Assembly (NCBI GenBank): GCA_950097225.1
Contig: CATNCE010000006.1
Coordinates: forward strand, 1-55,156
Direction: 5' to 3'
DNA from: an uncultured Bacilli bacterium
Lineage (GTDB): Bacteria > Bacillota_I > Bacilli_A > RF39 > UBA660
DNA length: 55,156 nt
The translations under genes and the position numbers were made by a program. Shown here piece by piece: positions 1 through 55,156 of the stretch. The notes below the pieces were generated by a model. That model saw only the letters and a list, made by a program, of their open reading frames with translations. It ran no database searches and was not told where the DNA came from. Positions within the stretch are counted from its first letter, which is position 1; every line of letters begins with the position of its first letter.

Positions 1-1608
1 ATAAATAATACTTTGAATATAGGTTTTAATAATACATTCTTAGATGATGTTGTATTCATAAAAACAAAAACTGAGGGAACTGCTTCTATAAGTGAAGATG
101 GGAAGTCGATTACTTATGATGCTAAAAAAATAAGTAATAAAGATGAAGAAGCAAATCTAACATTCTGGATAAAAAATGAAAATACTCAATATGATGCAGA
201 TGTATCTATTAATTGTAGTCTAAATGATAATTCAAGTAACTTAGCTGATTTAGTTGATTTAACAATTGAGCCAAGTAACTTTGTATTAGAATCTAATGAA
301 GTAAAGACAGGCGAAGTAAAAGTAAAGTTAAAAAGTGTAGTAACCGAAGAAAAATATGGAACATTTACATGTGAATTAGTAGCAACGCCAACTGAAAGAG
401 AAGTACCAGGTGTAATAACTGATACATGTATAGAAGATTTAAATGGAGCAGAACCAGTGATAAATGGAGAGTTAATACCAGTTGAATTATCAAATAATGG
501 TGAAGTTACATATTCTGATGAGAGTGAATCTTGGTACAACTATTGTGAACAAAAATGGGCTAATACAGTAATACTAGTTGATAGTCCAAGCAAAACTTAT
601 AATGTAGGTGATATAATTCAGGAAAGTGATATTGAATCATATTTCGTATGGATACCAAGATATCGATATAAGTTGTTTCATGCTAATCAAGCAGATGGTT
701 ATGAAAATAAATTATCAGAAAGTATAGCCCAGACAATCGAGATTGAGTTTGAGAGTAAAGATACACCAGTATCAAATGGAACTCAAGACGGAGAATGGTT
801 AACGCATCCCGCCTTCACAAATTTCGATGTAAATGGAATGTGGGTAGGTAAATTCGAAATAGGATATAAAGGAGCAACAAGTGTATCTTCTGCTCAAGTA
901 AGTTCATCCGATCCAACCAAAATCCAAGTAAAACCGAGTGTATATAGTTGGCGTTCCAACTCAGTAGGTAATTTTTTCAAAGCCATGTATAATTATAATC
1001 GTGGGTTAGATTCGCATATGATGAAGAATACAGAATGGGGAGCTGTTGCATATTTAAGTCATTCAAGATATGGAATAAACACAGAAGTAAGAATAAATAA
1101 TAATTCCAATTTTTTAACAGGATATGCAGCTAATACCAAAGATGCAGGGCAAAGTACTACAGCAAACCAGCCATATAATACAGAAACAGGATATCTAGCA
1201 TCAACTACTGGTAATATAACTGGAGTATATGATATGTCTGGTGGCGCATGGGAATACGTAGCAGGATATAGAGATGGAAATGTCAAGAATAGTGGACTAA
1301 CATTAGACGAAATAAGAAACACCTATAGTAAATATATAGATGTATATGCAAGTAATAGTGTAGTAACAACATATAGTAAGCGTATATTAGGAGATGCCAC
1401 AGGAGAAATGGGACCATTTTATTATTCTAGTGGATATTATCGAAATAACTGGTATGATGATTATTCGTACTTTGTGGAGTCTTCTTACCCTTGGTTCGGT
1501 CGCGGCGGCTATTACGGCCATGGCTCCGGTGCAGGCCAGTTCTACTTCGGTAGGAGCACTGGTGGTGCCTACAGCGGCGACAGCGCTCGCCTCGTACTTT
1601 GTGGTTAA
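1..1608 (+). CDS. Secreted DGR target-like protein, TasA-like N-domain plus FGE/C-type-lectin-fold C-domain (5' end outside window)
   Basis: The reading frame is open from base 1, so the signal peptide and start lie upstream; the paralogue at 54415 shows what is missing. About 535 residues are visible. Residues 1-135 match the N-domain of that paralogue and share the pattern SEDGK-IT...E-A-LT...N with the TasA-like protein at 49686. A linker with two cysteines (DTC near 143, NYC near 182) leads to YFVWIPRYRYK near 215. The rest looks like a formylglycine-generating-enzyme/C-type-lectin fold: MWVGKFEIGYKG, NTEWGAVAYLS, and DMSGGAWEYVAG, which corresponds to the usual D-M-S-G-N-V-W-E-W. The last 42 codons are GC-rich and end in ARLVLCG, like the GFRxVL end of DGR targets. 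Likely role: surface display of a variable binding domain. That role is inferred; the fold call is by motif only. Confidence 0.8.
   Translation: MNNTLNIGFNNTFLDDVVFIKTKTEGTASISEDGKSITYDAKKISNKDEEANLTFWIKNENTQYDADVSINCSLNDNSSNLADLVDLTIEPSNFVLESNEVKTGEVKVKLKSVVTEEKYGTFTCELVATPTEREVPGVITDTCIEDLNGAEPVINGELIPVELSNNGEVTYSDESESWYNYCEQKWANTVILVDSPSKTYNVGDIIQESDIESYFVWIPRYRYKLFHANQADGYENKLSESIAQTIEIEFESKDTPVSNGTQDGEWLTHPAFTNFDVNGMWVGKFEIGYKGATSVSSAQVSSSDPTKIQVKPSVYSWRSNSVGNFFKAMYNYNRGLDSHMMKNTEWGAVAYLSHSRYGINTEVRINNNSNFLTGYAANTKDAGQSTTANQPYNTETGYLASTTGNITGVYDMSGGAWEYVAGYRDGNVKNSGLTLDEIRNTYSKYIDVYASNSVVTTYSKRILGDATGEMGPFYYSSGYYRNNWYDDYSYFVESSYPWFGRGGYYGHGSGAGQFYFGRSTGGAYSGDSARLVLCG
1480..1605 (+). other. 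Candidate DGR variable region (VR)
   Basis: This 126-base stretch is about 61% GC (77 of 126 counted) inside a gene that is otherwise AT-rich. Roughly 15 codons are TAC, TAT, GGT, GGC, CAT, AGC or GAC. Each can be derived from AAC or AAT by changing only adenines, while the codons between them (TGG, TTC, CGC, TCC, GCA, CAG, GCC) look fixed. The segment sits at the extreme C-terminus and ends in CGCCTCGTACTTTGTGGT just before the stop, where the conserved 3' anchor of a VR is expected. No template repeat was found in the window, so the call rests on composition, codon pattern and position. Confidence 0.72.
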
Positions 1609-49685: not shown

Positions 49686-50246
49686 ATGAAAAAAACAAAG
49701 AAAAGTATCTTAATTCTAGTATTATTACTGACAGTAGGATTCGCTGCTGTAACAACAACGTTATATATTAACGGAACATTACATTTAGGAGCTAACGCAA
49801 CTGATTTCGAAACAAACGTTATTTTTACAAAAGCTGAATTAACTTATAGTGATACTACTAAAACAGCTGTAACAACAGGTTTAATTTCTGAGGATGGTAA
49901 GACAATTACATTTGAAACAGATACTCTAAAAAGTATCGATGAAACAGCTACATTAACTTATGACATTACTAACAACAGTCAATATGGTGCTAGCTTATCT
50001 GACATGGTTTGTACTGTAACAAATGAAGCTGGAACTGATGTAACTGAAGCTGTAAATAACAATACAGAATACATTACATTAACACCATCTGCATTAACAG
50101 GAGTTTTGGCAACTAAAGCAGTAAAAGAAAACAATACTTTAGTTATCAAAATGAGAAGATCATATGCTCCTACAGAAGAAGGAAAAGAGACAACTAGTTA
50201 TACAGTAAGTTGTACAATCGCTGCTGAAGGTACAACTGGAAGTTAA
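49686..50246 (+). CDS. TasA/camelysin-like secreted protein with SipW-type signal peptide
   Basis: 187 residues. N-terminus KKTKKSILILVLLLTVGFAAVTTTLYINGTL is the long basic/hydrophobic signal typical of SipW-dependent proteins such as TasA. The mature domain is beta-rich with TITFETDTLKSIDETATLTYDITN, the same pattern as SITYDAKKIS...EEANLTFWIKN in the DGR target-like proteins at 1 and 54415. One Cys pair (MVCTV, VSCTI) may form a disulfide. It is likely the main exported subunit. AAGGAAGGAA precedes ATG 49686, chosen over a TTG at 49680. The signal peptidase gene follows. Confidence 0.8.
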   Translation: MKKTKKSILILVLLLTVGFAAVTTTLYINGTLHLGANATDFETNVIFTKAELTYSDTTKTAVTTGLISEDGKTITFETDTLKSIDETATLTYDITNNSQYGASLSDMVCTVTNEAGTDVTEAVNNNTEYITLTPSALTGVLATKAVKENNTLVIKMRRSYAPTEEGKETTSYTVSCTIAAEGTTGS

Positions 50247-54390: not shown

Positions 54391-54414
54391 ACTAATAGAA
54401 TAGGAATGTCGTCT

Positions 54415-55156
54415 ATGAGAAAGAAAAGTATCATATATTTCTTTGTTATCGCACTTGTAATAGGTTTTGCTAGTGTAGCAACTAATCTAGTGATAAATAA
54501 TACTTTAAATATAAGTTTTAATAATACATTCTTGGATGACGTTGTATTCATAAATACTAAAACTGAGGGAACGGCTAGTATAAGTGAAGATGGGAAAACG
54601 ATTACCTATGATGCCAAGAAAATAAGTGCAATGAATGAAGAGACAAGTTTAGCATTCTGGGTGAAGAATAAAAATACTCAGTATGATGCAGATGTAATCA
54701 TTAATTGTGGTATAGATGATAATTCAAGTAACTTAGTTAACTTAGTAGATGTAACAATTGAGCCAGATAAATTTACCTTGGTATCTAATGAAGTTGTGTC
54801 TGGCGAAGTAAAAGTAAAGTTAAAAAGTGTAGTAATTGAAAGTATAGATGGAAACTTTACATGTGAATTAATAGCAACACCATTAGAAAGAGAAGAGACA
54901 GGTGTAATAATTGATACATGTGTCAATGCATTAAATGGAGCAGAGCCTGTGATAAATGGCGAGTTAATACCTATTGAATTATCTGATAATGGTGAAGTTA
55001 CATACTCTGATGAGAGTGAGTCTTGGTACAACTATTGTGAACAGAAATGGGCAAATGCAGTAATATTAGTTGATAGTCCAAGTAAGCAATATAATGTAGG
55101 AGATACAATACAAGAAAGTGATATTGAGTCCTATTTCGTATGGATACCAAGATATA
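54415..55156 (+). CDS. Second DGR target-like protein (3' end outside window)
   Basis: The visible 247 residues include the start missing from the gene at position 1. SipW-type signal MRKKSIIYFFVIALVIGFAS is followed by LVINNTLNISFNNTFLDDVVF. The rest is very similar to residues 1-220 of the first gene: ASISEDGKTITYDAKKIS, NYCEQKWANAVILVDSPS and YFVWIPRY at the edge. The two must be recent paralogues. The C-terminal lectin-like domain and any variable region would lie beyond the window. AGGAATGTC precedes the ATG, with promoter at 54361. Confidence 0.82.
   Translation, partial: MRKKSIIYFFVIALVIGFASVATNLVINNTLNISFNNTFLDDVVFINTKTEGTASISEDGKTITYDAKKISAMNEETSLAFWVKNKNTQYDADVIINCGIDDNSSNLVNLVDVTIEPDKFTLVSNEVVSGEVKVKLKSVVIESIDGNFTCELIATPLEREETGVIIDTCVNALNGAEPVINGELIPIELSDNGEVTYSDESESWYNYCEQKWANAVILVDSPSKQYNVGDTIQESDIESYFVWIPRY

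Follow-up and report, generated by a model that had tools for sequence, protein, structure and literature searches.

Why should a gene of AT-rich composition end in a short island of high G+C, and what process could have produced it? The question is raised by the first gene of the stretch of DNA analysed here (the window: contig C6 of the host assembly, 55,156 nucleotides), which belongs to the assembly of a small bacterial genome of gut type, with 58 contigs and 1.61 Mb, that is 92% complete. The G+C content of positions 1480–1605 is 61.1%, compared with 31.2% for the window and 32.3% for the gene body, and no other 126-base stretch above 50% is present at window positions more than 300 bases away from it. 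The island lies at the end of the open frame 1–1608, as a preliminary description of this DNA had noted when it proposed that the island is the variable repeat (VR) of a diversity-generating retroelement (DGR). The features referred to below are the following.

1–1608, + strand: DGR target gene of secreted or surface type; a 535-residue open frame with its 5′ end lost at the contig edge and TAA at 1606–1608.
613–1605, + strand: C-terminal target domain, common to ~48 host genes (profile A1, E = 4.2e-207).
1464–1594, + strand: VR, in which 21 of 37 template adenines and 0 of 94 other template bases are replaced.
1582–1594, + strand: AGCGCTCGCCTCG, a candidate IMH core that ends the VR on its 3′ side; its final base is G in 17 of 17 fresh VRs and A in the template.
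1616–1640, + strand: hairpin with an 11-bp stem and a 3-nt loop, just past the stop codon and ahead of a T-rich stretch; a terminator and/or a target-site hairpin.
54406–55156, + strand: second target gene of the same family, its VR cut off by the contig end (250-residue open frame; profile match at 55105–55155).

The window also encodes, at 49686–50243, a secreted-type protein that has a target-like N-terminus and no lectin domain; no match to it was found in Pfam.

A DNA search of the host genome with positions 1450–1620 as the query returned 35 matches. The template (TR) was located at positions 187–317 of contig C49, where it is non-coding and holds 13 AAC or AAT codons. A near-copy with these codons at the variable positions is what the preliminary description had suggested looking for, and it is present in the same genome, adjoining a DGR-type reverse transcriptase (RT). 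The window VR differs from the TR at 21 of 37 adenines and at none of the 94 other bases (Fisher p = 1.2e-14). At the level of sequence, such adenine-only differences between TR and VR are the signature of a DGR. Exactly 15 codons differ from the template, in agreement with an earlier estimate of about 15. Thirteen of these are the AAC or AAT codons, which have become TAC, GGT, TAT, GGC, CAT, AGC and GAC in the window copy; the remaining two are changed from AGA to AGG and from GAT to GGT. The limits 1480–1605 hold for the island as judged by G+C, but homology to the template covers 1464–1594, so the true bounds are slightly wider. Past diversification of the gene, which the preliminary description had also claimed, is well supported by the comparison with the template, from which the gene differs at template adenines only.

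The same relation holds for other repeats in the genome. Following Roux et al. (PMC8144416), a VR was classed as fresh where at least 75% of its mismatches fall at template adenines. Seventeen host VRs qualify, with changes at 328 of 629 adenines and at 37 of 1530 other bases, and all 17 differ from one another. Their adenines are replaced most often by G (184), then by T (99) and least often by C (45); G is likewise reported as the commonest and C as the rarest replacement of A in DGRs (PMC3521204). In nine TR–VR pairs from related species, where the cassette has the order VR–TR–Avd–RT, 117 of 284 adenines are changed compared with 2 of 850 other bases. An ordinary family of paralogues, shaped by point mutation, selection and gene conversion and with no part played by an RT, would fit the many paralogues of high identity and the many non-adenine changes carried by older VRs. 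However, such a process cannot leave all 94 non-adenine bases unchanged while 21 of 37 adenines are replaced, and both a TR and an RT exist. Reading the relation in the reverse direction fails as well, as no VR adenine differs from its TR in the relatives. For the 17 fresh VRs the paralogue explanation is already refuted, and as an account of the locus we consider it extremely improbable.

The 3′ end of the repeat behaves differently from its interior. The last altered adenine is at template position 117 and the next adenine, at position 119, is never altered, which would mark the 3′ boundary of the replaced segment. Further, template position 131 is A in the TR and G in 17 of 17 fresh VRs, and the VR thus appears to carry an IMH distinct from the IMH* of the TR. 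A 13-base direct repeat, TCGTACTTTGTGG, at 1465–1477 and 1592–1604 was considered as an integration footprint and was rejected, because other VRs with CTCGTACTTT do not have the full match and because the 3′ copy is in a different reading frame.

An RT search of the host genome found two genes, one of which (RT1) shares the small contig C49 with a match to 1450–1620. This 3.3 kb MAG contig contains, in order, the last 26 bases of a VR including the stop codon, the TR (187–317), an Avd-like frame (from 553) and the RT (903–1904), which starts ~585 bases after the TR. RT1 scores above the Pfam RVT_1 cut-off and has the motifs IGNFTSQ and YMDD, which fit the (I/L/V)GxxxSQ and YxDD patterns of DGR RTs. 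Its best solved relative is 8ub7 ('Reverse transcriptase', E = 4.7e-45), which we take to be the RT of the BPP-1 DGR. The Avd-like frame, which is interrupted, is matched by PF22296 and NF033474, both below cut-off. In a scan of named genomes, many MAGs of Bacilli, most of them from the gut, proved to carry the RT. The ~200 bases after the TR are conserved, and an RNA fold in which 16 of 31 pairs covary (14 sequences) points to a structured spacer RNA 3′ of the TR. This RNA occupies the position of the BPP-1 spacer, which recruits bRT–Avd; Avd is required in that system (PMC12875486).

We therefore regard it as very probable that the stretch is the VR of a DGR which acts in trans on a large and dispersed family of target genes. 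By analogy with the BPP-1 system, retrohoming would begin with the copying of the C49 template RNA by the DGR RT together with Avd, with misincorporation opposite adenines, and the cDNA would then take the place of the final ~115–130 bases of a target, with the common 3′ element AGCGCTCGCCTCG as its anchor. Because the variable codons are AAC or AAT, the changes would not create stop codons. The outcome would be surface proteins in which a C-type-lectin/FGE-type domain varies at ~13 residues per copy, and the domains presumably differ in the ligands that they bind (other cells, phage or host glycans).

It is possible, if rather less than probable, that these VRs are products of a DGR that no longer functions in the host lineage, the cassette decaying and the variation a fossil. 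Codon 64 of the C49 Avd (553–918) is an in-frame TAA; the corresponding codon in relatives is GAT, GAA, ATA or AGT, and the frame of related species is uninterrupted. The last ~25 residues of RT1 depart from those of 13 relatives (C49 1850–1905), fitting a frame shift. A MutS_I-like gene that lies between the TR and Avd in relatives (MutS domain I-like; Pfam E = 1e-10 for L053 662–1045) is missing from the C49 cassette. A third RT is a remnant (C33:80–223) that is 73% identical to residues 1–49 of RT1 and contains stop codons. However, non-adenine changes are absent from four VRs, that of the window included, which argues that copying was recent, and only one is found in each of six more, so that any loss of the DGR must be very recent. 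In addition, a 3.3 kb contig may contain consensus errors, and a second, uninterrupted Avd (on contig C16) could act in trans. The cassette may have died very recently, C49 may contain errors, or another Avd may help.

The protein encoded by the target gene at 1–1608 was modelled with AlphaFold (AF2; pLDDT 77.5). The N-terminal domain is rich in beta structure and the C-terminal domain is of FGE/C-type-lectin type; model residues 159–535 match the fold of Thermus aquaticus TaqVP (5vf4; Z = 20.5, 249 aligned, 21% identity). The other fold matches are Treponema denticola variable protein 1 (Z = 12.5), formylglycine-generating enzymes (Z of ~10.8) and Mtd (Z of ~10.3). Judged from the model, the gene that ends in the VR encodes a protein of C-type-lectin fold. 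The fold search agrees with the FGE/C-type-lectin motifs reported earlier, although the Pfam FGE-sulfatase match is under cut-off (E = 0.0025) and nothing in Pfam is over cut-off for the target protein; the protein does end in ARLVLCG, as described. In an alignment of 28 targets, entropy peaks at the template AAC/AAT codons and the framework between them is nearly invariant. The target proteins are likely to be displayed on the surface, since a hydrophobic, signal-like segment forms the N-terminus of the intact ones.

A profile of the C-terminal target domain gave 59 matches in the host genome, fragments included. Forty host genes have a recognisable VR end and 8 more have a divergent or broken end, giving a total of ~48 target genes spread over some 30 contigs, and the assembly breaks at many of them. 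Matches to the domain number from 1 to >30 in related genomes, and none were found among the sampled genomes outside the family. Across the 40 VRs, G+C falls as non-adenine divergence rises (Spearman −0.86, p = 1e-12), with losses mostly at C. This trend argues that the GC island is neither an import nor a case of unusual codon choice. The template has a G+C content of 49%, richer than the genome, and the island would be the mark of recent copying from it, raised by A-to-G changes; VRs that have had no recent refreshing would drift to the AT-rich composition of the genome.

The size of this repertoire could be inflated if the MAG mixes strains or species, with some VRs being alleles of one locus. 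The assembly is a draft in 58 contigs, many of them broken within target genes, and the contigs split clearly by GC skew into two classes (magnitudes of about 0.03–0.14 and 0.26–0.38), in both of which target genes are present. However, the G+C content is 30.8% in both classes, their tetranucleotide profiles are similar, contamination of the assembly is 0.28%, and the fresh VRs of one TR are found in both classes. Some single contigs (C8, C13, C26 and C32) contain several neighbouring targets, and 16 VR matches to the TR of a related genome of the same genus, G002, are present independently within that genome. Inflation by mixing is accordingly a most unlikely source of the count. GC skew assigns 54 of 55 target-gene pieces to the leading strand, but also ~90% of other coding sequence (p = 0.023), which is no more than suggestive of an effect of replication direction; the freshness of VRs showed no relation to the strength of the skew (p = 0.36).

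The system can be compared with several that have been described. It resembles the DGR of Bordetella phage BPP-1 (brt, avd, TR and mtd VR) in its Avd, in an RT with its best solved relative among bRT structures, in a TR with a structured spacer, in adenine-only differences, in an IMH-type 3′ end and in a C-type-lectin target. Unlike BPP-1, the host is bacterial rather than a phage, and the targets number ~48 instead of one and are dispersed and remote from the cassette. Nor is the hairpin found in BPP-1 at a fixed distance after the VR conserved here. Hairpins that may be terminators follow many VRs and vary in position, loop and sequence; a conserved BPP-1-like cruciform was rejected, as no fixed form or place is kept across VRs. 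The DGR of T. denticola (TvpA family) likewise combines one TR with remote chromosomal targets that have FGE-like C-lectin domains, but isolates of that species have 2–7 targets (PMC4891356), compared with 17 fresh ones and ~48 in all here. Many targets per genome are also a property of the DGRs of Trichodesmium erythraeum, whose genome combines two DGR RTs with 18 loci showing TR/VR homology (PMC8867640), and of Thiohalocapsa PB-PSB1, with 15 targets from nine DGRs (PMC10907252). In contrast to both, one template here accounts for most targets in 1.6 Mb. TaqVP, the closest solved fold of the target domain, is itself a DGR variable protein, although it is from another phylum and the match leaves the N-terminal domain of the target uncovered.

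The literature already documents DGRs, remote targets and FGE-type lectin targets, and the present system is an extreme example of known DGRs, with a repertoire that is unusually large for one template. Among open-licence papers, none that we found describes so many dispersed targets for one template, and none describes DGRs in RF39 or Bacilli gut MAGs; a record is not claimed. A survey of 30,000 DGRs states that remote targets were invisible to it (PMC8144416). Ranking the repertoire against the 91 TR–VR pairs of P. costantinii (Yan 2019) was rejected, because 21 merged VRs fall within one ORF there and the pairs are not comparable. We put at about even the chances of a broader proposal: that a single template constantly renews dispersed surface-lectin genes by the dozen across the genome (we found no larger trans-acting repertoire described), that the age ladder of the VRs records which targets were rewritten and how often, and that related species show the opposite arrangement, in which one RT is accompanied by a tandem array of ~ten templates. 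A DGR is usually reported to have one to a few targets, whereas ~48 share a template here, with VRs that range from fresh to decayed. They offer a natural system for testing which targets a DGR rewrites, for example the effect of replication direction, which has been observed for a DGR in a reconstituted Escherichia coli system (PMC12875486). The repertoire further accounts for islands of high G+C against an AT-rich genomic background, and for the breaks at target genes in assemblies of these bacteria.

A second DGR is present in the host on contig C16 (L024, 8048–9800, minus strand), with an RT that has the motif IGNMVSQ and an uninterrupted Avd. A coding gene of 405 residues, which resembles the targets of this DGR, carries the template in frame as its 3′-terminal part. 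Four copies of this template, matching over 145 bases, are found elsewhere (C35, C10, C5 and C1). In the three that were tested, 13–14 of 20 adenines and 2–6 of 43 non-adenine bases are changed. For a fifth target, on C7, the match is confined to sequence upstream of the VR. In related genomes, 9–11 template-like repeats lie beside one RT (L075 260–4400, L067 2496–5600 and L074 2932–6540). The templates of L075 form a tandem array with one per ~370 bases, and a separate conserved spacer lies downstream of each.
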